A stretch of 64,000 nt of DNA. Origin: Halomonas socia. GTDB taxonomy: Bacteria > Pseudomonadota > Gammaproteobacteria > Pseudomonadales > Halomonadaceae. Location of the stretch: contig NZ_CP048812.1 in the NCBI RefSeq assembly GCF_010977575.1, positions 62,001 through 126,000 on the forward strand, read 5' to 3'. The translations under genes were made by a program, and so were the position numbers. Below, piece after piece: positions 42,675 through 60,772 of the stretch (position 1 is the first letter of the stretch; every line of letters starts with the position of its first letter). Under the pieces are notes generated by a model, which saw only the letters and a list, made by a program, of their open reading frames with translations, was not told the DNA's origin and made no database searches.

Positions 42675-42830
42675 GCCCGCCTATGGTGCGTCGCATCATG
42701 GATGCGCACCAAGACAACGCCAAGCGAGATATCACCGTTCACAGGCTGCTATACGCAAGTCCTTGTTGGCGAAAGAAACAGCACCATTACAGGTAAAAAT
42801 GGCACCCTAACTGCAACGGTATTGGCGTAC

Positions 42831-42852
42831 GCTGAGTCAACGACGGTTCAGC
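42831..42852 (+). promoter_or_regulatory. ANTAR recognition hairpin, hexaloop AACGAC
   Basis: GCTGAGTC pairs with GGTTCAGC (two G-U pairs) around AACGAC. A1 and G4 fit the ANTAR loop rule. The site lies 26 bases before the terminator. Confidence 0.7.
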
Positions 42853-42877
42853 TCCCAGGCAGTTCTCAATACCGGAC

Positions 42878-42940
42878 AACGGCGTCTGATAAGAGTCCCC
42901 CAGTGAGTGGGGGCTTACATCAGGCGCCGTTTCTTTGTTT
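42878..42940 (+). terminator. leader terminator before nrtA
   Basis: The outer stem AACGGCGTCTGAT (42878-42890) pairs with ATCAGGCGCCGTT (42919-42931), with one mismatch; an inner CCCCC/GGGGG stem tops it. TTTCTTTGTTT follows. It ends about 12 bases before the nrtA start codon, a typical attenuator position. Confidence 0.88.
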
Positions 42941-42951
42941 GGAGCCATCAC

Positions 42952-44256
42952 ATGAACAACAACAGATTCAAGGGTTACTCCCCTCAGCGTCGTCGCTTCC
43001 TGAAAAACTCCGCCACTCTGGTCGGCGGTTCGGCGCTACTCAGCAGCCTGCCGGTGAGCTGGGCCTTTGCCGACGGCCAGCCGGAAACCACCGCGGCCAA
43101 GCTCGGCTTCATCGCCTTGACCGATGCCGCACCGCTGTTCGTCGCCGACGAGAAGGGCTTCTTTGCCAAGCACGGCATGACCGATGTCGAGGTGCTCAAG
43201 CAGTCCTCCTGGGGCACCACCCGCGACAACCTGGTGCTCGGCTCCCAGCGCAACGGCATCGACGGGGCGCATATCCTCACCCCGATGCCCTACCTGATCA
43301 GCGCCGGCGCGGTGACGCCCAACAACCAGCCGGTGCCGATGAGCATCCTGGCGCGCCTCAACCTCAACGGCCAGTGCATCTCGGTGGGCCGCGACTATGC
43401 CGATCTCGAGGTGCAGCTGGATACCCGCGAATTCGGCCAGACACTGGCCGAAAAACGCGCCGGTGGCGACGAGGCCAGTGCCGCCATGACCTTCCCCGGC
43501 GGCACCCACGACATGTGGATTCGCTACTGGATGGCCGCAGGAGGCATCGACCCCAATCGTGACGTCTCGACCATCACCATTCCGCCTGCGCAGATGGTCG
43601 CCAACATGCGCGTAGGCAGCATGGATACTTTCTGTGTCTGCGAGCCCTGGAACCACCAACTGGTCAACCAGGGGATCGGTTATACCGCCAATACCACCGG
43701 CGAACTGTGGAACGACCACCCGGAAAAAGCCTTCGCCATGCGCAGTGACTATGTGGAGGAAAACCCCAACGCCACTCAGGCACTGTTGATGGCCATCATG
43801 GAAGCACAGATGTGGTGCGAGGATCCGGCCAACCACGAAGAGATGGCACAGATCTGCTCACGTCGTCGCTGGATTCACGCACCCTATGACGATCTTATCG
43901 ACCGTATCCAGGGTAATTTCGACTATGGCACTGGACGCGTTATCGAGAACCATCCACAGATGATGCGCTACTGGGATCATCACGCGTCTTATCCCTTCAA
44001 GAGCCACGACCTGTGGTTCTTGACCGAGAACAAGCGCTGGGGCTACCTGCCCATGGATCTCGACAGCGCCGCCCTGATCGAGCGGGTCAATCGCGAGGAC
44101 CTTTGGCGCCAGGCAGCCGACCGCCTCGGCGTGGCATCAGCCGACATTCCCGACTCGACCTCGCGCGGCATCGAGACCTTCTTCGATGGCAAGACATTCG
44201 ATCCCGAGGATCCCCAGGCCTATCTCGACAGCCTCGAGATCAAGCGCCTGGCCTGA
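42952..44256 (+). CDS. nrtA: nitrate ABC transporter substrate-binding protein NrtA/NasF
   Basis: This 434-residue receptor binds nitrate (or nitrite) outside the inner membrane. A twin-arginine-like signal (RRRFLKNSATLVGGSALL, residues 13-30) precedes an AFA cleavage region. The mature part has NrtA hallmarks: LGFIALTDAAPLFVADEKGFF, GTTRDNLVLG, GGIDPNRDV and FCVCEPWNHQLV. GGAG lies before the ATG; an earlier in-frame GTG at 42907 falls inside the terminator and is rejected. Expression should depend on NasR antitermination. Confidence 0.93.
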   Translation: MNNNRFKGYSPQRRRFLKNSATLVGGSALLSSLPVSWAFADGQPETTAAKLGFIALTDAAPLFVADEKGFFAKHGMTDVEVLKQSSWGTTRDNLVLGSQRNGIDGAHILTPMPYLISAGAVTPNNQPVPMSILARLNLNGQCISVGRDYADLEVQLDTREFGQTLAEKRAGGDEASAAMTFPGGTHDMWIRYWMAAGGIDPNRDVSTITIPPAQMVANMRVGSMDTFCVCEPWNHQLVNQGIGYTANTTGELWNDHPEKAFAMRSDYVEENPNATQALLMAIMEAQMWCEDPANHEEMAQICSRRRWIHAPYDDLIDRIQGNFDYGTGRVIENHPQMMRYWDHHASYPFKSHDLWFLTENKRWGYLPMDLDSAALIERVNREDLWRQAADRLGVASADIPDSTSRGIETFFDGKTFDPEDPQAYLDSLEIKRLA

Positions 44257-44303
44257 GCCATATGCTTGACCTACCACTGATACACTGACATGGGAGAATC
44301 GCC

Positions 44304-45158
44304 ATGAGCGTTTCATCCAGCGCTGACAGCACCGGCCAGCCTCTATTGGGCGGGTGGTCAGCCAACCTTCAGAAGCTTCGCGATAGCCTGATACACAATG
44401 TCCTGCCGCCGGTGATCATCCTCGCCGTGCTCGGGGCCATCTGGGAGATCCTCTGCTCGTCGCCGGGGGCGGCACTGCCGCCCCCTTCCCAGGTGGTGAC
44501 CGACACCTGGGAGCTGATCATCGACCCCTTCTATGACTATGGCGGCAACGACAAGGGCATGGGTTGGCAGATTCTCGCCAGCCTCGAGCGCGTCGCCTAC
44601 GGCTACTCGTTGGCCGTGGTGGCCGGCATCAGTCTCGGCGTACTGGTCGGCCAGTCCACCTGGGCCATGCGTGGACTCGACCCGGTGTTCCAGGTGCTGC
44701 GCACCGTGCCACCGCTGGCCTGGCTGCCGATCTCGCTCGCCGGCTTCCAGGACAGCACCCCCTCGGCGATCTTCGTGATCTTCATCACCGCCATCTGGCC
44801 GATCATCATCAACACCTCGGTCGGCGTGCGTAACATTCCCGAGGATTACCGCAACGTGGCGCGGGTACTGCGCCTCAACGGCCTGGAGTATTTCACCCGC
44901 ATCATGCTGCCGGCCGCCGCACCCTATATCTTCTCCGGGCTGCGCATCGGCGTGGGGCTCTCGTGGCTGGCCATCGTCGCCGCCGAGATGCTGATCGGCG
45001 GGGTGGGCATCGGTTTCTTCATCTGGGATGCCTGGAACGCCTCGATGATCAGCGACATCGTGCTGGCGCTGATCTACGTCGGCATCGTCGGCTTCTTCCT
45101 CGACCGCATGGTCGCCTATATCGGCAACCGCGTCACCCGCGGCACCGCCAAGGGCTAA
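44304..45158 (+). CDS. nrtB: nitrate ABC transporter permease NrtB/NasE
   Basis: This 284-residue permease has six hydrophobic segments and the EAA-like loop EDYRNVARVLRLNGLEYFTRIMLPAA. Segments RTVPPLAWLPISLAGF and LSWLAIVAAEMLIGGVGIGFFIWDAWN are typical of nitrate/taurine-type permeases. GGGAGAA precedes the ATG. It follows nrtA after 47 bases. Confidence 0.92.
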   Translation: MSVSSSADSTGQPLLGGWSANLQKLRDSLIHNVLPPVIILAVLGAIWEILCSSPGAALPPPSQVVTDTWELIIDPFYDYGGNDKGMGWQILASLERVAYGYSLAVVAGISLGVLVGQSTWAMRGLDPVFQVLRTVPPLAWLPISLAGFQDSTPSAIFVIFITAIWPIIINTSVGVRNIPEDYRNVARVLRLNGLEYFTRIMLPAAAPYIFSGLRIGVGLSWLAIVAAEMLIGGVGIGFFIWDAWNASMISDIVLALIYVGIVGFFLDRMVAYIGNRVTRGTAKG

Positions 45159-45170
45159 CGGAGACCTCCC

Positions 45171-46019
45171 ATGACCACACGCTATCTAAGCATCGAGCAG
45201 GTCGACATGACCTTCCACACCAAGGGTGGCTCGAGCAACGTACTCAAGGGCATCAACCTGAGCGTCGCCCGCGGCGAGTACATCTCGATCATCGGCCACT
45301 CCGGCTGCGGCAAGTCGACCCTGCTCAATATCATCGCCGGGCTGACCGACTCGACCTCCGGTGCGGTGATCCTCGACGGCAAGGAGGTCAACGCCCCGGG
45401 CCCCGATCGCAGCGTGGTGTTTCAGAACCACTCGCTGCTGCCGTGGTTGACCGTCTACGAGAATGTCGCGCTGGCGGTCAACAAGACCTGCGCCCGGACC
45501 AAGAGCAAGGCCGAGCGCCACGCCTGGATCCTCAAGAACCTGGAGATGGTGGGCATGGGCCATGCGCTGGACAAGCGTCCGGCGGAGATCTCCGGCGGCA
45601 TGAAGCAGCGCGTCGGCATCGCTCGGGCGCTGGCCATGGAACCCAAGGTGCTGCTGCTCGACGAACCGTTCGGTGCCCTCGACGCCCTGACCCGCGCCCA
45701 CCTCCAGGAGGAGGTAATGCGCATCCAGGATGAGCTCGGCAACACGGTGCTCATGATCACCCACGACGTCGACGAAGCGGTGCTGCTCTCCGACCGCATC
45801 GTGATGCTGACCAATGGCCCCTCGGCGTGTATCGGCGAAGTGCTCGACGTCGACCTGCCGCGGCCGCGCAACCGCATCACCCTGGCCGATGACCCGACCT
45901 ACAACCACTACCGCCAGGAGGTGCTACGTTTCCTCTACGAAAAGCAGCGCAAGGTCGAGCAGCTCGCCGAACGGCGCGACAAAGCCCCCACCCCCGAGGC
46001 CTCCAAGGCCCGAGCCTGA
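45171..46019 (+). CDS. nrtD: nitrate ABC transporter ATPase NrtD/NasD
   Basis: This 282-residue ATPase has Walker A GHSGCGKST (about residue 42), Q-loop VFQNHSLLPWLTVYENV, signature ISGGMKQR, Walker B VLLLDEPFGALD and H-loop MITHDVDEAV. The SLLPWLTVYENV segment is characteristic of NrtD/SsuB/TauB. It ends the nrtABD operon; no NrtC-type fusion is present. Confidence 0.93.
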   Translation: MTTRYLSIEQVDMTFHTKGGSSNVLKGINLSVARGEYISIIGHSGCGKSTLLNIIAGLTDSTSGAVILDGKEVNAPGPDRSVVFQNHSLLPWLTVYENVALAVNKTCARTKSKAERHAWILKNLEMVGMGHALDKRPAEISGGMKQRVGIARALAMEPKVLLLDEPFGALDALTRAHLQEEVMRIQDELGNTVLMITHDVDEAVLLSDRIVMLTNGPSACIGEVLDVDLPRPRNRITLADDPTYNHYRQEVLRFLYEKQRKVEQLAERRDKAPTPEASKARA

Positions 46020-46023
46020 AGAC

Positions 46024-46052
46024 TGCCGCGCCGCCCATCGGGCGGCGCGGCA
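46024..46052 (+). terminator. strong hairpin after nrtD
   Basis: A 13-bp perfect GC-only-type stem (46024-46036 with 46040-46052) with an ATC loop lies four bases after the nrtD stop. The T-run after it is weak (TTGG), yet the stem is strong enough to act as a terminator. Confidence 0.65.
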
Positions 46053-46137
46053 TTGGCATGGAATGATCACAAAGATGGCAACCTGGCGGGTGTCGAGCCA
46101 TGCTCATAGCCATCGCCCGCGACACAGAGCCCGCCCA

Positions 46138-47241
46138 GTGAGAGACTTCCCTCGCGTCACGGTATTCTACGACGAGCGCATGCTGGCCCATGAGCCAAGC
46201 GCCGATGCCGCTTTCCTCCCCGGCCGCATGGATACCCGCATCCGCCAACTGCTATCCAGGCTCGGCGTGCCCTGGAAATACCCCGAGCATCCCGGCCGGC
46301 TTACCGCCATCAACCAGTTCCTGGCCCTCGCGCCACTTCAGGGCGTCACCTTCGAGACGGGAAAGGCGGCCACTGCCGAGCAGCTAGGACGCGTTCACAC
46401 CTCGTCGTACCTCGAGCAGGTGTTCAAGCTGCGCGGCCAGCATGCCTGGCTGGACGTGGATACCACCGCGGTATCGCCGGGTAGCGTGGATGCCGCCGAA
46501 GTGGCCGCCGGCACCGCGATTGCCGCCGTCGAGTCGGTGGTCGCCGGCGCAAGCGACAGCGCCTTCGCCCTGGTACGCCCGCCGGGGCATCACGCCGAAC
46601 CGGTGCGCGCCCGGGGCTTCTGCCTGTTCAACAATGTGGCGGTGGCCGCTGCCCACGCCAAGGCGGCGCTGGGCTGCCCGCGCGTGATGATCCTTGACTG
46701 GGATGCGCATCACGGCAACGGCACCCAGGACATCTTCTGGGCTGACCCCGATGTGCTGTTCATCGACCTGCACCGTGGCGCTCCCTTCTATCCCGGCAGC
46801 GGTAGCCTGGACGAGATCGGTGAAGGACTCGGAGAAGGCACCACCGTCAACATCCCCCTGCCGGCCGATGCGGGCGACGCGGCCTATCTGCTGGCCTTCG
46901 AACGCATCCTCGAACCCGCGGCGGACTGGTTCAAACCCGACCTGATCCTGGTCTCGGCAGGCTTCGACCCCCACGCCCATGACCTGGCACTCAACGTCTC
47001 CTACCGCGGCTTCGCCTCGATGACACACCGCCTCAAGCAGCTTGCCGCCCGCCACAGCCAGGGCCGGCTGGCGTTCGTGCTCGAGGGCGGCTACAACCTG
47101 ATTTCGCTGTCACATGGCGTCAAGGCCGTGCTCGAGGTGCTCGCCGGCACAGTTCCGCCGCCGCCGGGCGAGTGCGGTATCGCCGAGGTCGAAGCCGCCG
47201 CCGCCTTTCACCACGGCGCCTTCAGCGACCCCTCACAGTGA
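46138..47241 (+). CDS. histone deacetylase-family amidohydrolase
   Basis: This zinc amidohydrolase of the arginase/deacetylase fold removes acetyl groups from polyamines, proteins or small molecules. Active-site motifs are complete: RPPGHHAEPVRARGFC (His-His), LDWDAHHGNGTQ (zinc ligands), SAGFDPHAHD and LEGGYNL. The conserved domain begins at VTVFYDERMLAHE. The start is uncertain: GTG at 46138 gives 367 residues; ATGs at 46063 and 46075 add a basic tail of doubtful reality, and none has a good ribosome site. The substrate is unknown; an ABC exporter follows after 65 bases. Confidence 0.85.
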   Translation: MRDFPRVTVFYDERMLAHEPSADAAFLPGRMDTRIRQLLSRLGVPWKYPEHPGRLTAINQFLALAPLQGVTFETGKAATAEQLGRVHTSSYLEQVFKLRGQHAWLDVDTTAVSPGSVDAAEVAAGTAIAAVESVVAGASDSAFALVRPPGHHAEPVRARGFCLFNNVAVAAAHAKAALGCPRVMILDWDAHHGNGTQDIFWADPDVLFIDLHRGAPFYPGSGSLDEIGEGLGEGTTVNIPLPADAGDAAYLLAFERILEPAADWFKPDLILVSAGFDPHAHDLALNVSYRGFASMTHRLKQLAARHSQGRLAFVLEGGYNLISLSHGVKAVLEVLAGTVPPPPGECGIAEVEAAAAFHHGAFSDPSQ

Positions 47242-47306
47242 ACGCCGCACCTGCGTGACTGACGGGTTACGCGTACACTGGCGGCTCCCCCGCCAGGAGC
47301 CCGTTC

Positions 47307-49160
47307 GTGTCGTCACCGCCCGCCCCCGACCGTGACAGCAGCAATCCCCTCGCCGGGTTCTTCGGCGTGTTTCGCTACAGCCGCCGGGCGCTCGGCCTGG
47401 TGTGGGAGACCTCGCGCTGGATGACCCTGGGGCTGATGCTCTGCACCCTGGTCGCCGGGGTGCTGCCGGCAGTGGCGGCCTGGGTAGGCCAGTTGATCGT
47501 CGACGGCGTGGTCGCCGCCATGGAGGCCCACCGCGCGGCCAGCGATCCCGAGCTGCTCGCACTGATCACCCCGGTGCTGTGGCTGGTGGCGCTGGAGGGG
47601 CTGATCATCGCGCTGATCGCGCTGGCCCAGCGCGGCCTGGCCGCCCAGCAGTCGTTGCTGCGGGCGCTGCTCGGCCAGAAGGTCAACGTGATGATTCTCG
47701 AGAAGGCCGGGAGACTCTCGCTGGCGCAGTTCGAGGACTCCGAGCTCTACGACCAGCTGACCCGGGCCCGCCGCGAGGCCTCGACCCGCCCCCTGGCGCT
47801 GGTCAACAAGACCTTCGGGCTGCTGCAGAACGCCATCTCGCTGGCCAGCTTCGGCGTGCTGCTGGTGCAGTTCTCGCCCTGGGCGCTACTGCTGCTGGTG
47901 GCAGGCGCCCTGCCGGTGTTCATCTCCGAGGCCAAGTTCTCCGGCGACGCTTTCCGGCTGTTCCGCTGGCGCTCGCCGCAGACCCGCATGCAGATCTACC
48001 TGGAGACCGTGCTGGCCCGCGAGGACAGCATCAAGGAGGTCAAGCTGTTCGGCCTCGAGGGCCTGTTCCTGCAGCGCTATCGCGATATCTTCACCCGGCT
48101 GTTCGCCGAGGATCGCCTGCTGACACTGCGCCGCGAGAGCTGGGGCTTCCTGCTCGGCCTGCTCGGCACCCTGACCTTCTACGGCGCCTACGGCTGGGTG
48201 GTGGTGGAGACCATCGCCGGCGGCCTCACGCTGGGCGAGATGACCATGTACCTGATGGTCTTCAAGCAGGGCCAGGCGGCGCTCTCGGCCAGCCTCACCG
48301 CGATCAGCGGCATGTACGAGGACAACCTCTACCTCTCGAACCTCTACGAGTACCTGGAGCAGCCGGTGGAGGACGGCAGCGGCACCCTTACCCAAGGTGC
48401 CACGCCCGGCGATGGCCTGCGTTTCGAGGACGTCGCCTTCGCCTATCCCGGTGGCGAGGAGGTGCTGCACGATATCAACCTGCACCTCGCCCCGGGCCAG
48501 AGCCTCGCCCTGGTGGGCGAGAACGGCTCTGGCAAGACCACCCTGATCAAGCTGCTGACGCGGCTGTACCACCCCACCCAGGGACGCATCCTGCTGGATG
48601 GCAGCGACCTGCGCGCCTGGCAGACCGAGGCCCTGCGCGAGCGCATCGGCGTGATTTTCCAGGATTTCGTGCGCTACCAGCTGCAGGTCGGCGAGAACCT
48701 CGGGGTCGGCGACACCCACGCCTTCGAGGACCAGCAGCGCTGGCAGGAGGCCGCCCGCCACGGCATGGCCGACGACTTCATCGCGCGCATGGCCAGCGGC
48801 TACCAGACCCAGCTGGGCCGCTGGTTCAAGGGCGGCCAGGAACTCTCCGGCGGGCAGTGGCAAAAGATCGCCCTGTCGCGGGCCTATATGCGCGAGAACG
48901 CCGATATCCTGGTGCTCGACGAGCCCACCGCAGCCATGGACGCCGCCGCCGAAGCGGAGATCTTCGCGCGCTTTCGCGAACATGGACGCGACAAGATGAC
49001 CATCCTCATCTCGCATCGCTTCTCCACGGTGCGCAGCGCCGAACAGATCCTGGTCATCGACCGCGGCGAGATCATCGAACGCGGCACCCACGACCAGCTG
49101 CTGGCCGCCGACGGGCGCTACGCCACGCTGTTCCGGCTCCAGGCCAAGGGATATCGCTGA
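47307..49160 (+). CDS. ABC exporter half-transporter (membrane + ATPase domains)
   Basis: This 617-residue protein fuses a six-helix exporter domain (about 30-345) to an ATPase domain (about 370-610). ATPase motifs: GENGSGKTT, VIFQDFVRYQLQV, LSGGQWQK and ILVLDEPTAAMD, then ISHRFSTVRSAEQI. It would work as a homodimer and resembles lipid, peptide or drug exporters; the substrate is unknown. The start is GTG with AGGAG upstream. It may be co-transcribed with the deacetylase-family gene. Confidence 0.9.
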   Translation: MSSPPAPDRDSSNPLAGFFGVFRYSRRALGLVWETSRWMTLGLMLCTLVAGVLPAVAAWVGQLIVDGVVAAMEAHRAASDPELLALITPVLWLVALEGLIIALIALAQRGLAAQQSLLRALLGQKVNVMILEKAGRLSLAQFEDSELYDQLTRARREASTRPLALVNKTFGLLQNAISLASFGVLLVQFSPWALLLLVAGALPVFISEAKFSGDAFRLFRWRSPQTRMQIYLETVLAREDSIKEVKLFGLEGLFLQRYRDIFTRLFAEDRLLTLRRESWGFLLGLLGTLTFYGAYGWVVVETIAGGLTLGEMTMYLMVFKQGQAALSASLTAISGMYEDNLYLSNLYEYLEQPVEDGSGTLTQGATPGDGLRFEDVAFAYPGGEEVLHDINLHLAPGQSLALVGENGSGKTTLIKLLTRLYHPTQGRILLDGSDLRAWQTEALRERIGVIFQDFVRYQLQVGENLGVGDTHAFEDQQRWQEAARHGMADDFIARMASGYQTQLGRWFKGGQELSGGQWQKIALSRAYMRENADILVLDEPTAAMDAAAEAEIFARFREHGRDKMTILISHRFSTVRSAEQILVIDRGEIIERGTHDQLLAADGRYATLFRLQAKGYR

Positions 49161-49192
49161 CAGCCCGGGCTCAACGGCTCTCTCCCGACCGC

Positions 49193-49221
49193 TTGACGCT
49201 TGATCAGCGATTGTTTATAAG
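49193..49221 (+). promoter_or_regulatory. sigma-70 promoter for the DUF1127 gene
   Basis: TTGACG and TATAAG are separated by exactly 17 bases, close to consensus. The predicted start is near 49228, giving a leader of about 255 bases before the DUF1127-like gene. Confidence 0.7.
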
Positions 49222-49481
49222 AAAAAGGTCACTCACCTCAGGTGGGCGGCGTTCAACCTATCCAGAGACCGTTTTCTCATGCGCTGGCAAACCCGCGTCA
49301 ACCGTCCAAGCAAGCTACATCGCATTGCCAATAATGCGATGCGAGCCTGCCGTTGCCGCGTGCCAATCCGATACTGAGAAACGATGGCCGCGGCATGTGT
49401 CGCGGCCATGTGATTACCCCCGCTGTATTCGGTCATCTCCTGTTCGCGCTGCATCCCGGCCTCCCGCAAGGAGACCGAGAA
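49222..49481 (+). other. long leader with short ORF and hairpin
   Basis: The leader holds a CACCTCAGGTG palindrome near its 5' end, a 32-codon frame at 49279-49377 (start MRWQTRVNRPSKLHRIANNA, eight Arg, two Cys) with a weak ribosome site, and a nine-base perfect hairpin at 49384-49409 (ATGGCCGCG with CGCGGCCAT). The hairpin has no T-tract, so it is not a terminator. The combination suggests post-transcriptional control of the small protein that follows; this is inference. Confidence 0.45.
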
Positions 49482-49709
49482 ATGGCAATTTCCCCTAGCC
49501 TCAAGAGCCTGCTTCACGCACTGCGCAGCCGTGCGATCAAGCGTCGTCAATTCGCTCAACTCAGGGAGTGCGACCCACGCATGCTCAAGGACATGGGCCT
49601 GCGCTGGGAGCGCGGCACCCTGGTCGCCATCAATCCCGAGCGTGATCCATCAGGCACTACCCGCGACGCGCATGAGACCTGTCCCCACTGCGGGAGCAGA
49701 CTGACGTAG
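49482..49709 (+). CDS. DUF1127-like small protein
   Basis: This 75-residue basic protein has a DUF1127-type core (LRSRAIKRRQFAQLRECDPRMLKDMGLRWERG) common in small stress-related proteins that may bind RNA or a partner. Unusually for the family it has a C-terminal tail with a CPHCG motif, half of a zinc ribbon. AAGGAG precedes the ATG at 49482. It has its own promoter, a long leader and a strong terminator, so it is a monocistronic unit. Function is not established here. Confidence 0.75.
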   Translation: MAISPSLKSLLHALRSRAIKRRQFAQLRECDPRMLKDMGLRWERGTLVAINPERDPSGTTRDAHETCPHCGSRLT

Positions 49710-49711
49710 CC

Positions 49712-49746
49712 AACGCCCCGGCCACAGGACGTGGCCGGGGCGTTTT
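49712..49746 (+). terminator. intrinsic terminator after the DUF1127 gene
   Basis: A 14-bp perfect stem (49712-49725 with 49731-49744) with an AGGAC loop ends in TTTT. Confidence 0.92.
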
Positions 49747-49860
49747 CGCTGGCCCATACAGTACCGCCCGCCTCATTCGTCAGCCCCTTACTCATTAGCC
49801 GAGTGAATATCACCCTAAGAATCACTAGAATCGACGTTTCGCTTCGCTGCCGGACACGCC

Positions 49861-51120: not shown

Positions 51121-51187
51121 CAGTGTTCAGCGGCCTGGCAATTTGCGTCTAGACTGGCTGAGGAGTCGTCATCAAGAGGAGAGCACC

Positions 51188-51616: not shown

Positions 51617-51645
51617 TTAACCAATCACTCGGCTCGCGACCGCGC

Positions 51646-52368: not shown

Positions 52369-52387
52369 AGGCTGTCCTTGATCCTGA

Positions 52388-52497
52388 TACCAATTCAATC
52401 ATCAATGCAGCAAAGTTATACCATTTGGTCCCACTATTCAAAAAACCCCCTTGAATTGGTACATTTTTAGTTCTAGTCTCGATGAATACGGGACCAA
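52388..52497. promoter_or_regulatory. GntR operator cluster
   Basis: TACCAATTCAA (52388-52398) recurs inverted as TTGAATTGGTA (52451-52461). ACCATTTGGT (52420-52429) is an internal dyad, and TTGGTCCC (52425-52432) recurs inverted as GGGACCAA (52490-52497). All share the ACCA/TGGT half-site common among FCD-type GntR operators. The cluster spans both divergent promoters. Confidence 0.6.
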
Positions 52498-52523
52498 AAC
52501 AAACCTATGGAGAACCAAGCCAG

Positions 52524-53408: not shown

Positions 53409-53468
53409 CCGCCCATCAGGTAAACGCACCGGGTCAACAATATTTCACAACAACACCAGGAGCACGCC

Positions 53469-54563
53469 ATGTTCACTAACACTCCCACACTCAAGACCCT
53501 ATCAGCGGCCGTGCTGGTCACCGCCGGCAGTATTGCCGCCTCACCAGCCATAGCCGACGACTTCTACGAGGGCAAGACCATCGAGATGGTCGTGCCCTTC
53601 GGCGAGGGCGGTGCCACCTACGTGGCGGCACAATTCCTCAGGCCGTTCCTTGAAAAACACCTCCCCGGCAATCCGCGTGTGGATGTGCAGACCCGCCCCG
53701 GTGGCGGTTCGATCCTTGGCGCCAACTGGTTCGAGCAGAACGCCGAGCCGGACGGTGAAACCATCCTGTTCACCACATCATCGACCTCCAACCCCTACGT
53801 GCTGGACATGGAAGAGGTGGAATACGACCTGGCCGCCATGCGACCGGCCTACAGCCTGCCGTTCGGCGCGGTGATCTATGTCTCGCCGAACACCGGCATC
53901 GACTCGCCAGCCGGCCTCCTGGAACCCGATATGCCGCTGATCTATGGCGGCATCGCCGCGGCGGCCAGCGATCTGCCGACACTGCTGGCCTTCGAGCTAC
54001 TCGACCTCGACATCCAGACGGTGCTCGGCTTCGACGGCCGCGGCCCGGCGCGCCTGGCCTTCGAGCGCGGTGAGACCAACATCGATTTCCAGTTCACCCC
54101 CGCCTACATGTCGCAGGTGGTCGACATGGTCGAGGCCGGCACTGCGGTCCCCATCATGACCGGCGGCTCGGTCGGCGAGGATGGCGTGCTCAGCCAGCGG
54201 GACACCGCCTTCCCCGACTACCCCTCGGTCTACGAAGTGTATGAAGAGCTGAACGGCGAAGCGCCTTCCGGCGTGGAGTGGGACGCCTTCCAGTCGACCG
54301 GCGCCGTGACCTTCAACTACGGCCTGACCGCCTATCTCCCAGAGGGGACGCCGGACGAGATCCTCGAGATCTTCGAAGCCACCATCGCCGCCATCAACGA
54401 AGACCCCGAGTACCAGCAGCAGAGTCAGGATGCCGTGGGCGGCTATTCGCTGCTGCCCGCCTCCGAGGTCACCGAGTCACTCAGTGAGGCGCTGCAGCCT
54501 TCCGACGAGGTACGTGAGCACCTGCGCACGCTGCTCTCGGAAGAGTACGACGTCGACCTCTGA
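53469..54563 (+). CDS. tctC: tripartite tricarboxylate transporter receptor TctC
   Basis: This 364-residue periplasmic protein has a signal peptide (residues 1-29, AIA before DDFYEGKTIEMVVPF). The TctC fold is shown by VVPFGEGGATYVAAQFLRPFL and RPGGGSILGANWFEQ, which bind the carboxylate. AGGAG precedes the ATG. It is longer than the usual 320-330 residues. It follows the FAH gene and is separated from the membrane subunit by a terminator. Confidence 0.88.
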   Translation: MFTNTPTLKTLSAAVLVTAGSIAASPAIADDFYEGKTIEMVVPFGEGGATYVAAQFLRPFLEKHLPGNPRVDVQTRPGGGSILGANWFEQNAEPDGETILFTTSSTSNPYVLDMEEVEYDLAAMRPAYSLPFGAVIYVSPNTGIDSPAGLLEPDMPLIYGGIAAAASDLPTLLAFELLDLDIQTVLGFDGRGPARLAFERGETNIDFQFTPAYMSQVVDMVEAGTAVPIMTGGSVGEDGVLSQRDTAFPDYPSVYEVYEELNGEAPSGVEWDAFQSTGAVTFNYGLTAYLPEGTPDEILEIFEATIAAINEDPEYQQQSQDAVGGYSLLPASEVTESLSEALQPSDEVREHLRTLLSEEYDVDL

Positions 54564-54578
54564 TGCCAACTTCCCTGC

Positions 54579-54624
54579 CGCGGCCAGCCACCTCTCTCAC
54601 GGGTGGCCCTGGCCGCGTTTTTTT
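54579..54624 (+). terminator. internal terminator between tctC and tctA
   Basis: CGCGGCCAG (54579-54587) pairs with CTGGCCGCG (54609-54617), topped by CCACC/GGTGG, and is followed by seven T residues. It sits within an apparent operon and ends 23 bases before the tctA start codon. Partial read-through would give excess receptor over membrane subunit. Confidence 0.85.
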
Positions 54625-54647
54625 GCCCCCTGCATAGGACCTGTCTT

Positions 54648-56612
54648 GTGCTCGAGAACATTACAACGGCCCTGTCGATCCTGTTCGAGCCCATGCGGCT
54701 GCTGGCGCTGTTCGCCGGGATGCTGGCGGGCATGGTATTCGGCATGTTGCCTGGCCTCGGCGGTGTCGCCGCGGTGTCGATCCTGCTGCCATTCATCTAT
54801 CTGATGGACAGCTACGCCGGGCTGGCCATGCTGCTGGGCGCCATCTCGGTGATCTACACTGCCGACACCATTACCTCGGTCCTGCTCGGCGCACCGGGCT
54901 CGCCGGCGTCGGCGCCGACGGCCATCGAAGGCCATGCCCTGGCCAAGCAGGGCAAGGCATCGCTGGCGCTGGGTGTGGGCTTTCTGGCCTCGATGATCGG
55001 TGGACTGTTCGGTGCGCTGATCCTGTCGGTGGCGATCCCGATCGCTGGCCCGCTGGTACTCGCGCTGGGTACGCCGGAGCTGTTCATGTTCGCCCTGGTG
55101 GGGCTATGTTTTGCCGCCAGCATGGTCGGCAAGGATATCGCCGTCGGCCTCGCTGCGGCCTGCTTCGGCATCCTGCTGGGGGTGGTCGGCGCCGCCCCGG
55201 CGGCGGCCAACTACCGCTTCATCTTCGGCCAGCCCTACCTGATGGACGGCCTGCCACTACCGATCGTCGCGCTGGGGCTATTCGCCGTGGCCGAATTGAT
55301 CGGCATGGTCGCGTCCGGCGGCGGCATCGCCGGCAAGCCGATGGCCATGGGCAAGTGGGGCGAGAGCTTTCGAGAATTCTGGCGCAGTCGCTGGCTGATC
55401 GTGCGCGCCTCGATCATCGGAATCTTCGGCGGCTTCGTGCCAGCCGTCGGCGCCAGCGCCTCGACCTGGATCGCTTACGGCCACGCCATGAGTTCGACCA
55501 AGGACAAGCGGCGCTTCGGCAAGGGCGAGATTCGTGGGGTGGCCGGTGCCGAGGGTGCCAACAACGCCACGGTGATCTCCGACCTGGTACCGACCATGCT
55601 GTTCAGCGTGCCCGGCGGCCCGGCCGCAGCGATCTTTCTCGGTGCGCTGTTCTCGTTCGGCTTCTATCCCGGCCCGCGGATGGTCAGCGAGACGCCGGAC
55701 CTGATGTACATGATCGTCTGGAGCGTGGCGCTCGCCTCGGTGATGGGGGCCGCGCTGTGCTTTGCCGTGACGCCCTACCTGGCCCGCCTGACACGCATCA
55801 ACTTTGCGCTGATCGCCGCGCCGCTGCTGCTGATCATGGTCGCCGGCGCTTATCAGGGCACCCAGACCTTCGGCGACATCCTCGCGCTGCTGGTACTGGG
55901 CGTGATCGGCTGGCTGATGAAGAACGCCGGCTGGCCGCGTGCACCGGTGCTGGTCGGCTTCGTGCTGGCCACGCCGATGGAGCAGTACTTCTGGCTGACC
56001 ACGCAGATCCACGGTTTCGCCTGGCTGACCCGACCTGGCGTGCTGATCATTGCCTCGTTGATCGTGGTGCCGATGCTGCTCAACCTGGTGCGCAGGTGGC
56101 GGGCCTCGAAGGCCTCCGCCGCGGCCAATCCGGCCGATACTCAACCTGCCAGCGACGACGACGCGCCCCGCGATAGCACCATCCTGCTGCTCGCCTCGGC
56201 ATTGCTGCTGATCGCCTTTGCCTATGCCTGTTACGAGATGATGGGATTTCGCAGCAATGCCCGGCTGATGCCCGCGGTGGGGATCGTCCCCGGCTTGCTG
56301 CTGAGCGCCTATATTTTTGGCCGCCAGCTCTACCGGCTACGGCAGCGAGGGCAGATCGTTCACTTGGGCTCGCGTCAGGAGCTGCCGGTCCTGGCAGGCA
56401 TTCTCGCCTATGGGGTGGCGATGTGGCTGATCGGCTTCAGCTTGGCCACTCCGCTGCTGTTGGCCTGGCTGCTGTTGCGGTGTGCCAGGATGCGCCTGGC
56501 CAGCGCCGTCATCTATGGCGTAATCGTCTACGCTACCGCCCAGGGGATGTTCGCCCTGATGCGGCTCACGCCACCCGTGGGGAGCTGGATCAACCTGCCG
56601 ATGCCGTGGTAA
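54648..56612 (+). CDS. fused TctA-TctB tripartite tricarboxylate transporter membrane protein
   Basis: This 654-residue protein combines the large TctA permease (about residues 1-490; GMLPGLGGVAAVSILLPFIY, LLGAPGSPASAPTAIEGHALAKQG, EGANNATVISDLVPTMLFSVPGG) with a C-terminal four-helix TctB-like domain (about 515-650; FRSNARLMPAVGIVPGLLLSAYI). A hydrophilic linker around residue 495-510 joins them. Standard systems encode TctB as a separate small gene, absent here. The start is GTG at 54648 with AGGA; an in-frame opening at 54603 falls in the terminator. Confidence 0.85.
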   Translation: MLENITTALSILFEPMRLLALFAGMLAGMVFGMLPGLGGVAAVSILLPFIYLMDSYAGLAMLLGAISVIYTADTITSVLLGAPGSPASAPTAIEGHALAKQGKASLALGVGFLASMIGGLFGALILSVAIPIAGPLVLALGTPELFMFALVGLCFAASMVGKDIAVGLAAACFGILLGVVGAAPAAANYRFIFGQPYLMDGLPLPIVALGLFAVAELIGMVASGGGIAGKPMAMGKWGESFREFWRSRWLIVRASIIGIFGGFVPAVGASASTWIAYGHAMSSTKDKRRFGKGEIRGVAGAEGANNATVISDLVPTMLFSVPGGPAAAIFLGALFSFGFYPGPRMVSETPDLMYMIVWSVALASVMGAALCFAVTPYLARLTRINFALIAAPLLLIMVAGAYQGTQTFGDILALLVLGVIGWLMKNAGWPRAPVLVGFVLATPMEQYFWLTTQIHGFAWLTRPGVLIIASLIVVPMLLNLVRRWRASKASAAANPADTQPASDDDAPRDSTILLLASALLLIAFAYACYEMMGFRSNARLMPAVGIVPGLLLSAYIFGRQLYRLRQRGQIVHLGSRQELPVLAGILAYGVAMWLIGFSLATPLLLAWLLLRCARMRLASAVIYGVIVYATAQGMFALMRLTPPVGSWINLPMPW

Positions 56613-56696
56613 CCATGACTGACCTCATGCGGCTGGACAAGGCACAACATCGGCGTAGCCTAGGAAGGACTACTCATTCACATCAAGGATGTTCGT

Positions 56697-57173
56697 ATGA
56701 CGCTCTCAGTAGGTGACAAGATCCCCGATATCGCCATCAAGACCAATGGCCCGGACGGCCCCCAGGACATCTCCACCGGTGAGTTGTTCGCCGGCAAGCG
56801 CGTGGTACTGTTCGCCGTTCCTGGCGCCTTCACCCCCGGCTGTTCCAACACCCATATGCCCGGGTTCGTGATCAAGGCCGACGAGATATTTGCCAAGGGC
56901 ATCGACACCATCGCCTGCATGGCGGTCAACGATGCCTTCGTGATGGACGCCTGGCAGACGCATCAGAATGCCCAGGCCTTCACCATGCTGGCCGACGGCA
57001 ACGCCGAGTTCACCAAGGCGATCGGCACCGAGATGGATGCCAGCGGCGGCGGCATGGGCATACGCAGCAAGCGCTTCGCGCTGATCGCCAACGACGGCGT
57101 GGTGGAGTACATCGGCATCGATGCCAAGGGCGTCGACAAGAGCAGTGCCGAGACGGTGCTGGCCCAGCTCTGA
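56697..57173 (+). CDS. peroxiredoxin (Prx5 type)
   Basis: This 158-residue thiol peroxidase reduces hydroperoxides. The peroxidatic cysteine is in VPGAFTPGCSNTHMPGF (about residue 49). The GKRVVLFAVPGAFTPGC and RSKRFALIANDGVVEYIGI segments are typical of the Prx5/glutaredoxin-linked group; no fused glutaredoxin domain is present. AAGGA precedes the ATG. It is a single-gene unit. Confidence 0.93.
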   Translation: MTLSVGDKIPDIAIKTNGPDGPQDISTGELFAGKRVVLFAVPGAFTPGCSNTHMPGFVIKADEIFAKGIDTIACMAVNDAFVMDAWQTHQNAQAFTMLADGNAEFTKAIGTEMDASGGGMGIRSKRFALIANDGVVEYIGIDAKGVDKSSAETVLAQL

Positions 57174-57189
57174 GACTATCTGCGGTACG

Positions 57190-57218
57190 CAAGGGCCGAC
57201 CCTGGTGGCCGGCCCTTG
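57190..57218 (+). terminator. hairpin after the peroxiredoxin gene
   Basis: A nine-base perfect stem (CAAGGGCCG with CGGCCCTTG) with an 11-base loop, 17 bases after the stop. The T-run is weak. Confidence 0.55.
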
Positions 57219-57272
57219 TGCGTCCCCGGGGTGATTGGTCAGAATAGTCGGCTGCCACACTCGAGACAGCGC

Positions 57273-57767
57273 ATGGATATCACCCCGATTACCGCCGACG
57301 ACTTCCGGGCCTTCTGGCCGACCTTCCAGGCCATCGTCGAGGCGCAGGAGACCTACGCCTTCGACCCGAACATGGATTTCGATACGGCCTGGCGGCTGTG
57401 GTGCGAGCTTCCCCAGTTCACCTTCGTGGTCAAGCAGGACGGCGAGTTGCTCGGCTCCTACTACCTCAAGCCCAACGCCGCCGGGCCCGGCGATCATATC
57501 TGCAACTGCGGCTATATGGTCACCCCCCAGGCCCGCGGCAAGGGGGTGGCCCGAGCCATGTGCGAGCACTCCCAGCAGGTCGCCATCGACGCCGGCTACC
57601 TGGCCATGCAGTTCAATGCAGTGGTCGCCACCAACGAGGTGGCCATCCGCCTATGGCAGAAGCTCGGCTTCGAGATCATCGGCACTGTGCCCAGCGGCTA
57701 TCGCCACCGCGAGCTGGGCCTGGTCGATACCCGCATCATGTACAAGCGCCTGACCGCTGACGCCTGA
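57273..57767 (+). CDS. GNAT-family N-acetyltransferase
   Basis: This 164-residue acetyltransferase has the acetyl-CoA pyrophosphate loop in VTPQARGKGVARAMCEH (Q/RxxGxG/A) and the C-terminal NEVAIRLWQKLGFEIIGTVPSGYRH motif. The substrate is unknown; the YMVTP strand and YRH ending resemble small-molecule or protein N-acetyltransferases. The ATG at 57273 fits family length; a longer frame from 57216 is poorly supported. It is convergent with the kinase/phosphatase gene. Confidence 0.9.
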   Translation: MDITPITADDFRAFWPTFQAIVEAQETYAFDPNMDFDTAWRLWCELPQFTFVVKQDGELLGSYYLKPNAAGPGDHICNCGYMVTPQARGKGVARAMCEHSQQVAIDAGYLAMQFNAVVATNEVAIRLWQKLGFEIIGTVPSGYRHRELGLVDTRIMYKRLTADA

Positions 57768-57813
57768 AGGGCCACTCGCCCCAGGCGGGCGACCCTCGCC
57801 ACAGCGGTACCGC

Positions 57814-59544
57814 TCATGGATCAAACGCCACCATGAGCAGCGCGAGTATGATCGCCACCAGCAGTGCGGAAACCCCTTTCCAGAACAGCACAGGGTCGCG
57901 TTCGATCAAGGGGGGACGCGCCTTGTGGAGGAACGCCTTGCTGGGCTCGCGCAGCTCATGGGTGAACTCCGAGAGCGCCTCGAAGCGTCGTTCGGGCTTG
58001 AGGCTCAGGGCTTTCTTGAGCACCTCGTCGAGCCAGGGCGGTAGATCGTGATTGGCAGCGAGTAGCGGCTGATAGACCAGCCGGTTCTGTGCCGCCCGCG
58101 TGCGCGCCTTGGCCACCTCGGTACCATAGGGCAGCTTTCCGGTCAGCAGTTGATAGGCGATCACCGCCAGCGAGAACATGTCCGAACGTGGCGTGGCCGG
58201 CTCACCGAGGAAGCACTCCGGCGCGGTATAGCCTGCCGTTCCCAGCAAGTCGGCGCTCTGCTGTGGCCTGCCTTCGGCGATCCCGGCCACACGAACCGAG
58301 CCGAAATCGATGAGCGTCACGCTACCCGAGCCATCGATCATCACGTTATTGGGCCGCAGGTCCTGATGGACCATCTCCAGGCGGTGAAAGGCACGCAGCC
58401 CACGGGCGATCTGTTCGACGATGCTGCGCACCGTTTCCAGGTCGGGGCTCGGGTTGTCGCGCATCCACTGGGCCAGGGTACGCCCTTCGAGATAGTGCAT
58501 GACGTTATAGAGGTAGCTACGCCGTCGCCCGGGCAGATGCGCCTTCACTACGTGCAGGTTATCGACGCGTCGGGCAATCCACTCCTCCATCAGGAAGCGC
58601 TCCACATGGGCGGGATCCTCCTGGAGCTCAGTCGCCAGCGTCTTGATCAGCACGCGGTCAGACGTTTCGAGGTCGACGGCGAGGAAGGCATGACTGCGGT
58701 GGCTGGCATGCACATGGCGTTCGATGCGGTAGCCATCGAAGACCTGTCGCGGCTCGAGCTGAGGGGGAAACGGCAGCGCCGCCACCCCGGAAGAGAGCTC
58801 AGCGGCCTCGGCCAAGGGCACTTCGTCAATCCGCGCGACCTGCACCGTCAGATTGTCGTCGCTGCCGTGGTCGTAAGCTGCCTGGACGATGGCGGCAGCC
58901 GCCGTGTCCAGATCGTTCGGATGCCGCTCCAGGAGTGCTAGCATCTCCTTCTCACTGAGATACTCGTGGATGCCGTCGGTTGCCATCAGGAAACGGTCGC
59001 CTACCTCGATGGGCAGCGCGAGATAGTCGATTTCGAGCTGCTCGCTGGCCCCCATGGCGCGACCGAGATAGTGCTTATCCGCCGACACCCAGACACGATG
59101 TTCGCGGGTCAGCGGCTCCAGGCCACCGCCCACCGCCCGATAGAGCCGCGCATCACCGACGTGAAAGACGTGGGCCGTTGCCGACTTCAAGACCAGTGCG
59201 GTGAAGGTGCAGACGTAGCCGCGGTCCTTGTCCCAGCGGTACTGGCTATTACGGGTTTGGGCGTGCAGCCAGGAGTTGGTCGCCATCATCACCCGCTGTG
59301 CCGAGAGCTTCACGGTCCAGCTCTCGGCCGTGCAGTAATAGTCCTCGATGAAGCTCTTTACCGCCGCTTCGCTGGCAATCTGGCTCACCGTGCTGGTGCT
59401 GATACCGTCGGCCAGCGCCAGCACGATGCCCTTCGCCGAGCGCTGCGGTTCATAGGGCACATAGGCTGCGTAAAAGTCCTGGTTGGTGGGCTTGCGCCCC
59501 GCTGCCGAACACTGGCCCAGGCTGACGTTCAACTGGCGTTTCAT
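57814..59544 (-). CDS. PP2C phosphatase - Ser/Thr kinase fusion, membrane anchored
   Basis: This 576-residue protein joins a PP2C-like phosphatase (residues 1-245), a eukaryotic-type protein kinase (about 270-530) and one C-terminal transmembrane helix (553-574). Phosphatase metal ligands: Asp46-Gly47 (LADGIS), Asp131 (VGDARLY), Asp190 (TDGIHEY) and Asp229-Asp230 (GSDDNLTV). Kinase: Lys301 (LIKTL), His393-Gln394-Asp395 (VHQDLRPNN) and Asp413-Phe-Gly (LIDFGS). The glycine loop is degenerate (HVHASHRSHAFLA). It lies 38 bases after the nitrite channel gene. Pseudomonas nitrate-assimilation loci carry a similar kinase gene, as I recall. Targets are unknown. Confidence 0.9.
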   Translation of the reverse strand: MKRQLNVSLGQCSAAGRKPTNQDFYAAYVPYEPQRSAKGIVLALADGISTSTVSQIASEAAVKSFIEDYYCTAESWTVKLSAQRVMMATNSWLHAQTRNSQYRWDKDRGYVCTFTALVLKSATAHVFHVGDARLYRAVGGGLEPLTREHRVWVSADKHYLGRAMGASEQLEIDYLALPIEVGDRFLMATDGIHEYLSEKEMLALLERHPNDLDTAAAAIVQAAYDHGSDDNLTVQVARIDEVPLAEAAELSSGVAALPFPPQLEPRQVFDGYRIERHVHASHRSHAFLAVDLETSDRVLIKTLATELQEDPAHVERFLMEEWIARRVDNLHVVKAHLPGRRRSYLYNVMHYLEGRTLAQWMRDNPSPDLETVRSIVEQIARGLRAFHRLEMVHQDLRPNNVMIDGSGSVTLIDFGSVRVAGIAEGRPQQSADLLGTAGYTAPECFLGEPATPRSDMFSLAVIAYQLLTGKLPYGTEVAKARTRAAQNRLVYQPLLAANHDLPPWLDEVLKKALSLKPERRFEALSEFTHELREPSKAFLHKARPPLIERDPVLFWKGVSALLVAIILALLMVAFDP

Positions 59545-59582
59545 GTATCCATCCAATGAGGCCAACGGCCGATCACTTGCCC

Positions 59583-60392
59583 TCAGATCCGACGCTGCGG
59601 CCCGGTGCGCACATGGGTGGCGTACAGCGTCAGGCCGGTCAGCGAAATGCCGCCGACCAGGTTGCCGATCACGACCGGGATCTCGTTCCAGATCATGTAG
59701 TCCATGATCGAGAACTCGCTGCCCAACATCAGCGCCGAGGGGAACAGGAACATGTTGACGATGGAGTGCTCGAAGCCCATGTAGAAGAACAGCATGATCG
59801 GCATCCACATGGCGATCACCTTGCCTCCCACCGTCGTCGAGATCATCGCCCCCACCACGCCGAGGGATACCATCCAGTTGCACAGCACCCCACGGATGAA
59901 CACCGTCAACATCCCGGCAGCGCCAAACTCCTTGTAGCCCAGGGTACGATCCTTGCCGACTTCGGAGATCGCCAGTCCCACTTCATCCGGCGGCGTCGAG
60001 AAGCCATAGGTGAAGACGATTGCCATGAGAAAGGCCACCGTCAAGGCACCCAGCAGATTACCGGTAAACACCACTCCCCAGTGCTTGAGGATACGTGGAA
60101 GGGTGACGCCAGGGCGCCGGTCGAGCCAGGCCAACGGGGTCAGGACGAACACCCCGGTGAGCAGGTCGAAGCCCATCAGGTAGAGCATGCAGAACCCCAC
60201 CGGGAACATGGCCGCACCCAAGAAGGCGGAGCCGGTCTGCACCGTGATGGTCACGGCAAAGACGGCGGCCAGGGCCAGGATGGCGCCGGCCATGAAGGAG
60301 CGTAACAGCGCATCTCGCGTGGCCATATAGAGCTTGGACTCGCCAGCATCGACCATCTTGGTCGAAAATTCGGAAGGGAGCAGATAAGACAT
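59583..60392 (-). CDS. nirC: formate/nitrite transporter family channel (NirC-like)
   Basis: This 269-residue pentameric FNT-type channel has six hydrophobic segments. Family elements include the central-loop helices LGAAMFPVGFCMLYLMGFDLLTGVF and the C-terminal FFYMGFEHSIVNMFLFPSAL with the conserved pore His. Next to CobA and NasA, nitrite is the likely substrate rather than formate. The ATG at 60392 fits family length; its ribosome site is weak. A NasR-type leader precedes it. Confidence 0.87.
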   Translation of the reverse strand: MSYLLPSEFSTKMVDAGESKLYMATRDALLRSFMAGAILALAAVFAVTITVQTGSAFLGAAMFPVGFCMLYLMGFDLLTGVFVLTPLAWLDRRPGVTLPRILKHWGVVFTGNLLGALTVAFLMAIVFTYGFSTPPDEVGLAISEVGKDRTLGYKEFGAAGMLTVFIRGVLCNWMVSLGVVGAMISTTVGGKVIAMWMPIMLFFYMGFEHSIVNMFLFPSALMLGSEFSIMDYMIWNEIPVVIGNLVGGISLTGLTLYATHVRTGPQRRI

Positions 60393-60436
60393 GGCTTTCA
60401 AGGTCTCGCATAGTGAGCGTGGCTGGTGCACGAACG

Positions 60437-60476
60437 AAAAGGCGCCTGAAGCTGAATGTCAGCTCCAGGCGCCTTT
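60437..60476 (-). terminator. leader terminator before nirC
   Basis: On the minus strand AAAGGCGCCTG-AGCTGA pairs with TCAGCT-CAGGCGCCTTT, with one G-T mismatch and a three-base loop, then TTTT. It precedes the nirC start by about 45 bases and so acts as an attenuator. Confidence 0.88.
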
Positions 60477-60516
60477 GCCGATGTTCGTTGCGATGGGGAA
60501 GGTTCGAACATGACGC

Positions 60517-60532
60517 CGGTCTTCGTTGACCG
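60517..60532 (-). promoter_or_regulatory. ANTAR recognition hairpin, hexaloop AACGAA
   Basis: On the minus strand CGGTC pairs with GACCG around AACGAA (A at position 1, G at position 4). The loop differs from the nrtA-leader loop only at the last base. Confidence 0.7.
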
Positions 60533-60569
60533 AGACGCCTACGAACGCGAATACCCCGTCACCTGTATA

Positions 60570-60587
60570 AAGCACGTCCCGTGCCAA
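60570..60587 (-). promoter_or_regulatory. sigma-54-type promoter TTGGCACGGGACGTGCTT
   Basis: GG and GC are separated by ten bases, as RpoN requires, and TGGCACG-N4-nTGCT matches consensus at all but one core position. It lies 178 bases upstream of nirC on the minus strand. It implies nitrogen-limitation (NtrC-type) control. Confidence 0.65.
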
Positions 60588-60772
60588 GTATTGAAAACTC
60601 GCGTCAAGAGCGGTGAAAAGGACGCAAGGTGGCGTATCTACAGGTTCTCTCGCGCCGTGGTGACGCAAGATGTACATCGGCTTGCCTGCAACTTCGTGGC
60701 ATAAGCGATCAATGTGGTGCACGGCCGATCCAGATCGCTCGCCTTTGGTGCAATGGGCCCGAGAGGACTGCG

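Follow-up and report, generated by a model that had tools for sequence, protein, structure and literature searches.

Two ANTAR-type antitermination leaders at a Halomonas socia nitrate locus: nrtABC under probable NasR control and nirC under probable NasS-NasT control

The closest described relatives of the system reported here are the NasR-nasF leader of Klebsiella and the NasS-NasT systems, the latter reportedly found by Romeo in 2012 to act by antitermination on the nirBD operon of Pseudomonas aeruginosa. As far as the accessible parts of the published accounts go, NasR control of nasF is established (PMC7496416), as is binding of NasT to the Paracoccus nasA leader (PMC3795266), and the NasS-NasT targets of Bradyrhizobium, nosR and others, number more than one per genome (PMC6759348). 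Within the same limits, the C-G pair closing ANTAR hexaloops is a result of systematic evolution of ligands by exponential enrichment (SELEX; PMC7496416); eut leaders have linkers of 5-12 nucleotides (nt) between their hairpins, 14 nt impairing induction, the published search definition for ANTAR leaders permits a variable linker, and ANTAR regulons with several leaders have been sought and found before (all PMC3369931). The accessible part of PMC8014003 calls NasR and NasST almost mutually exclusive in Halomonas but places both in the H. desiderata group, with 'possible dual regulation'; their coexistence in halomonads is already published there. Here we describe a 64-kb stretch of the 4.75-Mb Halomonas socia genome (C1:62001-126000, hereafter the window, whose numbering applies unless a prefix is given) with two such leaders, one upstream of the nitrate transporter operon nrtABC and one upstream of nirC and a kinase gene. 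We consider it probable, from leader structure and gene distribution, that NasR serves the nrtABC leader and that NasS-NasT serves the leaders of nirC-kinase, nasA-cobA and nirB; in relatives, nirC leaders track NasT.

In the nrtA leader (plus strand), a sigma-54-like promoter (TGGCACCCTAACTGCA, 42800-42815, predicted start near 42826) precedes a first hairpin, P1, at 42831-42852 (GCTGAGTC(AACGAC)GGTTCAGC; hairpin scan and model matches) and a second, P2, at 42873-42888 with the loop AACGGC (hairpin scan and match to model R1, below), the two being separated by a linker of 20 nt. An intrinsic terminator recovered by scan and minimum-energy fold occupies 42878-42931 and stops 20 nt short of the ATG. 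On the minus strand, the nirC leader has a sigma-54-like promoter at 60570-60587 (TTGGCACGGGACGTGCTT), P1 at 60516-60533 with the loop AACGAA (TCGGTC(AACGAA)GACCGG; scan and model R2), P2 at 60468-60479 with the loop AAAGGC (scan, pair changes and R2), a linker of 36 nt, and a terminator at 60438-60476 that overlaps P2 (scan and fold). The predicted promoters carry GG-N10-GC, as in the sigma-54 consensus; such boxes also stand in the other ten nrtA leaders, as judged by eye, and before P1 in eight of nine other nirC leaders, the ninth (L021) being judged by eye. TGCACCA half-sites lie 165 and 134 bases upstream of the nirC box.

The 5' arm of each terminator begins at base 1 of the P2 loop, and P2 and the terminator are therefore mutually exclusive. 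The minimum-energy fold of the nrtA leader retains P1 and the terminator, not P2, and the lowest-energy fold of the nirC leader likewise retains P1 and the terminator. A preliminary description of this DNA had proposed hexaloop hairpins AACGAC (nrtA) and AACGAA (nirC) followed by terminators and had read both leaders as attenuators; scan and folds bear out the hairpins and terminators, and the attenuator reading is supported for both. That description lacked the P2 of each leader and the sigma-54-like boxes. A conserved hairpin bridging the long nirC linker was considered and rejected, as shuffle z-scores of the ten linkers ranged from -1.39 to 1.64.

A scan designed after the leaders had been seen, and calling for two hexaloop hairpins with A at loop position 1 and G at position 4 (A1/G4), closed by C-G, with an overlapping terminator, returned exactly two sites in the window, the nrtA and nirC leaders. 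In 40 dinucleotide-shuffled versions of the window the scan returned 0.125 sites on average, and no site had a terminator stem of at least 12 pairs; this comparison flatters the two leaders, since the scan was fitted to them. Both leaders have two hairpins of at least 3 base pairs with A1/G4 hexaloops and a terminator overlapping P2, and the C-G closing pair, which the scan required, is present in all four hairpins.

Structure was also assessed by pair changes, as the preliminary description had suggested. Alignment A1 holds 19 of 24 tandem nasT-flanking leaders from relatives and H. socia itself, five identical or near-identical rows having been dropped; apart from the H. socia nasA leader, every row was selected by a scan in which the hairpins are required. 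Pairing held in 97.7% of P1 cells, where 6 of 7 pairs showed double changes, and in 81.6% of P2 cells, where the outer pair failed in 14 of 19 rows; the whole-structure covariation score was 0.582, compared with 0.236 for shuffled and at most 0.116 for slid alignments. Ten nirC leaders had double changes at 5 of 7 pairs and a score of 0.413 (0.182 shuffled, at most 0.161 slid). Locus L026, with no clear P1, was excluded from alignments A3 and A4, and the whole nrtA-leader alignment A2, with its poor end points, was not counted. Compensatory changes are thus present, in leaders preselected for hairpins and for the nrtA class by eye only, with some count measures not above those of shuffles.

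The covariance search that the preliminary description had called for recovered each leader with a model trained without it. Model R1, built from nasT-flanking leaders with no nrtA or nirC leader included, matched the nrtA leader in the window at 27.0 bits (cmsearch, E 4.7e-5), the next match scoring 15.5 bits; genome-wide, the nrtA leader ranked third (E 0.0035) behind two training sites from the same genome, with the fourth match at E 0.30. In the window R1 did not recover the nirC leader whole, finding parts at 10.4 and 9.0 bits, presumably because of the long linker. Model R2, from the nirC leaders of nine relatives with the H. socia leader excluded, ranked the latter first genome-wide (35.9 bits, E 1.1e-5) and scored the nrtA leader at 19.4 bits (E 0.0057 across the searched sources). 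The next genome match of R2, a candidate fifth leader at C1:4413376 (21.9 bits, E 0.0285; L160), was dismissed as chance, lying antisense within what by eye is a DapA-like open reading frame. Judged by these sequence features, the nrtA and nirC leaders are real ANTAR-type antitermination leaders with a sigma-54-like box upstream, to which an ANTAR protein would bind.

A search of the genome with NasR revealed a second ANTAR stretch at C1:127169-127417, the two ANTAR domains being 41% identical over the matched stretch. It belongs to a receiver-ANTAR protein, NasT (C1:126833-127423, plus strand; L008:5834-6427, plus), that starts 0.8 kb beyond the window end and is adjoined by an NMT1-like sensor, NasS (L008:6424-7446, plus; domain match). 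The order in L008 is nasA (minus), then nasT, nasS, a nirB-like flavoprotein gene and nirB (plus). Two further leaders flank these genes, both members of the R1 training set: that of nasA (C1:126442-126481, L008:5443-5482, minus; R1 49.2 bits) and that of the nirB-type operon (C1:128596-128638, plus; 55.4 bits). The genome thus combines two ANTAR nitrate regulators with four leaders that score above noise; nasT-nasS and these two leaders, outside the window, were absent from the preliminary description. The nirC leader is about 4.3 kb from nasT and 18 kb from nasR. At position 1 of the nasA leader P2 loop, G stands in H. socia and in G012, and A in three sister species. A third A1/G4 hexaloop hairpin, GGCGGC(ATCGCG)GTCGCC (L008:7579-7596, plus), immediately precedes P1 of the nirB leader in five of five sampled genomes of the genus.

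We then compared regulators and leaders across a family sample of 151 genomes: 8 with NasR and NasT, 41 with NasR only, 27 with NasT only, 28 with a NasT-like protein only, and 47 with none. These classes were typed by hand from searches. A genome was counted for NasR when a match with an E value no worse than 6e-64 spanned both NIT and ANTAR (49 genomes, of which one had the gene in two pieces and one an internal stop), for NasT at 80% identity or more (35 genomes) and for NasT-like at 38-44% identity (28 genomes); ANTAR-only matches, a 79-residue NasR fragment in G023 and longer NIT proteins that matched only weakly (about 22-31% identity) were not counted. nrtA (E <= 1e-100) occurred in 11 of the 151 genomes, each with NasR: 8/8 of those with both regulators and 3/41 of the NasR-only genomes, compared with 0/27 NasT-only, 0/28 NasT-like and 0/47 others. 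By eye, all 11 nrtA leaders have P2 and the terminator, and 10 have P1. Leaders were also scanned at 34 of 80 named nasR loci, of which 23 have P1, P2 and terminator, 3 have P2 and terminator, 7 have nothing and 1 (L248) has an unlike match. nrtA lies directly 3' of nasR at 21 scanned loci, with a full leader at 16, among them loci from Azoarcus, Xenophilus, Variovorax and Pseudothauera, betaproteobacteria thus being included; no full leader was seen in Nitrincola (L231) or at four Pseudomonas loci. NasR control of the nrtA leader is well supported by this distribution.

nirC (E <= 1e-60) is present in 36 of the 151 genomes. Counting a leader where P1 of at least 3 base pairs, P2 and a terminator were seen, we found it in H. 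socia, in 6 of 9 NasT-only and 3 of 4 NasT-like genomes, in 0 of 18 NasR-only genomes, and in 0 of 4 with neither; two of these leaders (L015, L022) have a P1 of only 3 base pairs and fall outside the stricter hairpin scan. Nine nirC places without a locus were inspected separately and had no leader. Taking together the NasT-only and NasT-like genomes, all of which lack NasR, the count is 9 of 13, compared with 0 of 18 NasR-only genomes (Fisher p 3.5e-5, a guide only, as the genomes are related). The hairpin scan is indifferent to regulator class, while R2 leans by training to NasT-type genomes. Two genomes illustrate the pattern: NasT-only G122 has the same plan as H. socia (nirB1-leader-nasS-nasT / nasA-cobA-leader-nirC-kinase), and in NasR-only G010 nirC lies within about 77 bases of cobA, with no leader between them and no nasTS. 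Across all 151 genomes, mutual exclusion of NasT and NasR was not significant (Fisher p 0.22).

R1 matches occurred in 33/35 NasT genomes, 18/41 NasR-only, 0/28 NasT-like and 2/47 with no regulator, a tracking that leans toward NasT by the training of R1. The NasT-like proteins form a second lineage (L165:2721-3263, minus; L166:2994-3545, minus), confined to genomes that lack NasR; in both genomes opened (L165, L166) this NasT adjoins its own NasS and is divergent from narK, and three of the four such genomes with nirC have the nirC leader.

These data suggest a mechanism in which both leaders would be transcribed from their sigma-54-like promoters, presumably under sigma-54 and NtrC. Without nitrate or nitrite, the transcript would fold the terminator and stop before the first gene; with a loaded sensor, a freed or activated ANTAR protein would clamp P1 and P2, preventing the terminator so that transcription reads through. 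NasR (NIT-ANTAR) would act on the adjoining nrtABC leader and NasS-NasT on the three leaders that surround it, namely those of nasA-cobA, the nirB-type operon and nirC-kinase. We infer this exact division of the leaders from gene order and co-occurrence.

Several observations weigh against this division of labor or the structures behind it. The linkers of the nrtA (20 nt) and nirC (36 nt) leaders both exceed the 5-12 nt of eut leaders, although long linkers are also found in other nitrate leaders. The leaders aligned for pair counts were preselected for such hairpins; the seven A1 pairs with double changes were reached by 140 of 500 shuffles, the further pair types in A1 by 253 of 500, and those in the nirC leaders by 450 of 500. 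The P2 loop of the H. socia nasA leader, GACGAC, begins with G, contrary to the A1 rule, and no loop code separating NasR from NasT leaders was seen by eye. Three NasT-only genomes (G021, G040, G039) have nirC without a leader, and in the NasT-like genome G009 the nirC leader consists of P2 and terminator with no clear P1 (R2 15.4 bits, E 0.053). Lastly, a nirB leader stands at the equivalent place without nasTS in five of five NasR-only genomes opened (R1 26.4-32.4 bits), four of these loci (L161-L163, L168) having been chosen for their R1 matches and one (L164, from G010) not being among them. Some NasR-only relatives have leaders 5-27 kb from nasR, and the nirB leaders in NasR-only relatives are presumably served by NasR, in several cases over that distance. 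Since the nirB leader persists without nasTS in these genomes, NasR can probably read NasT-type leaders, and for that reason cross-talk may occur at nirC in H. socia, with NasR as a secondary input.

The preliminary description had gone further, placing both leaders in one NasR regulon, a reading under which NasT would have no part at nirC. Both leaders being of ANTAR form and nasR lying in the window fit this proposal, as do the NasR-only relatives just mentioned, in which NasR probably acts at a distance; the nrtA half of it is well supported, given that nrtA occurs only in NasR genomes (11/11). The nirC half is not: some 4.3 kb separate nasT-nasS from the nirC leader, which is missing from all 18 NasR-only nirC genomes and present in genomes without NasR, and we regard a single NasR regulon as very improbable. 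A broader arrangement, in which NasR and NasT act in parallel and most, if not all, of the four leaders are bound by each of them, deserves more weight while still being unlikely. The similar hairpins of all four leaders and the 41% identity of the two ANTAR domains speak for it, and the nirB leader, which adjoins nasTS in certain genera, occurs in NasR-only genomes of other genera. However, nrtA goes with NasR and nirC leaders go with NasT-type regulators, with no exception in the sample save the genomes having both, and linker lengths differ among the leaders.

That the leaders are constitutive terminators or small RNAs, with no ANTAR protein acting on them, is hardly credible. The nirC leader does align at full length with the Rfam small RNA P11, but at 29.7 bits this is below the gathering score of 70 bits; pair changes in two A1/G4 hexaloop hairpins argue for an ANTAR target, as do the R1 matches in 33 of 35 NasT genomes compared with 2 of 47 without regulators, allowing for a training set that leans this way. 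The reading we favor thus remains NasR at nrtABC and NasS-NasT at nirC-kinase, nasA-cobA and nirB.

The heptamer TACAGGT, which the preliminary description had noted in both leaders as a common part about 84 bases before the terminator, is another matter. The spacing is as described (counted from its last base, the terminator is 84 and 85 bases away). In the nrtA leader, TACAGGT lies upstream of the sigma-54-like box at 42800-42815, and the nirC copy comes after the -12 element and before the predicted start; because both copies fall outside the transcripts predicted from these promoters, the heptamer is probably untranscribed in both leaders. The window contains 5 copies where 1.89 are expected, and 6 of 100 shuffles reach 5. 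TACAGGT is missing at the matching place in the 10 other nrtA leaders and in the five other nirC leaders compared (L012, L016, L015, L021, L022). On the shuffle counts and this lack of conservation we reject it as a common recognition element; its occurrence in both leaders is a coincidence.

The genes around the leaders form two groups, narK, nasR and nrtABC on the plus strand and nasA, cobA, nirC and a PP2C-kinase fusion gene on the minus strand. narK (39956-41308, plus) encodes a nitrate/nitrite transporter of the major facilitator superfamily (TIGR00886 over cut-off), and a hairpin and terminator scan of locus L009 found no ANTAR leader upstream of it. As the preliminary description had placed it, nasR lies between narK and nrtA (41403-42674, plus); its product, a predicted one-component nitrate sensor and antiterminator, has an N-terminal NIT domain (Pfam, 1.5e-50) and a C-terminal ANTAR domain (1.6e-19), and among the matches listed its nearest named relatives are those of Halomonas salipaludis (97%) and Franzmannia pantelleriensis (86%). 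nrtA-nrtB-nrtC (42952-46019, plus) encode a nitrate ATP-binding cassette transporter (NMT1_2 6.9e-106; TIGR01183 and TIGR01184 over cut-off). nirC (59583-60392, minus) encodes a formate/nitrite transporter family protein (Pfam Form_Nir_trans 4.3e-63); we infer that it starts at the ATG at 60392, although the open reading frame opens at 60431, because most relatives match from residues 8-14 onward. Located 3' of nirC is the gene for a PP2C phosphatase-Ser/Thr kinase fusion (57814-59499, minus; Pkinase 1.6e-35, PP2C_2 5.4e-14). The same strand carries, upstream of the nirC leader, cobA (60773-61672) and nasA, which runs from 61632 past the window end at 64000.

The leader, nirC and kinase gene together make up a block of about 3.05 kb (57756-60803) that is absent from four of four sister species examined. 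Its G+C content is 0.62; the flanking DNA has 0.70 in cobA-nasA and 0.63 at the opposite end of the block. Flanks matching window positions 57755 and about 60804 are just 53 and 84 bases apart in G049 and G012; in G035 and G060 about 1.8 kb of other DNA separates them. Loss in the sister species is as likely as gain in H. socia, since the NasT-only genome G122 also carries the block next to cobA, in the same position.

We tentatively propose, with somewhat less than even confidence, that halomonads swap the sensor and keep the RNA. NasS-NasT would have been replaced by NasR at the nirB leader in whole lineages, the genus of H. socia would keep both sensors, each with leaders of its own or both reading the same ones, and nirC-kinase together with its leader would form a plug-in unit that genomes gain or lose in one piece. 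If this is true, one RNA switch accepts two differently built nitrate sensors. For the regulon itself, the prediction is corrected in that the likelier regulator of nirC lay beyond the window edge, and a genome with two ANTAR nitrate regulators and four leaders, alongside relatives with a single regulator, offers a natural test bed for ANTAR specificity.

Comparison with RNA families points to a possible function of the Rfam narK RNA and to a structure that it would have in common with P11. The nirC leader (60441-60598, minus) aligns end to end with P11 of Pseudomonas (RF00625), at an E value of 0.013 for the score given above. Read off the alignment, the P11 consensus can fold into the same pair of hexaloop hairpins (AACGAU and AAAGGC), and the UUGGCAC...CUGCA at its 5' end resembles a sigma-54 promoter; the two differ in the downstream gene. 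The accessible part of PMC12080996 treats P11 as a P. aeruginosa regulatory small RNA, and from its consensus P11 may be a terminated leader of the nirB operon. The narK RNA (RF03032) consensus can likewise form an ANTAR pair, with loops AACGGC and AAAGAC. Its gathering score was reached in 2 of 16 relatives' loci scanned, exactly at R1 matches (L092:1068-1137, minus; L246:8596-8666, plus), whereas the H. socia nirB leader (L008:7598-7636, plus) scores 25.1 bits against a gathering score of 43.2. Among the papers listed by a literature search on the narK motif, none was found to treat it, and the listings of a search with subscription journals mostly outside its coverage showed no description of the nirC leader or of a split between NasR and NasT.

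Like the Klebsiella NasR-nasF leader, as far as the accessible parts of PMC7496416 and PMC3369931 describe it, the system reported here combines a NIT-ANTAR regulator with two A1/G4 hexaloops, C-G closure and overlap of P2 with the terminator. It differs in that the nasR-adjoining leader heads nrtABC alone, other nitrate genes having leaders of their own, and in its linker of 20 nt; Klebsiella NasR is only distantly related (about 30% for halomonads, according to the accessible part of PMC8014003). As in the NasS-NasT systems, again to the extent of the accessible accounts, a receiver-ANTAR NasT and an NMT1-like NasS are found near nasA and nirB with hexaloop-hairpin leaders. Unlike those systems, H. 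socia has nasTS surrounded by three leaders, including an internal one that separates cobA from nirC, and its genome also carries a NasR module.

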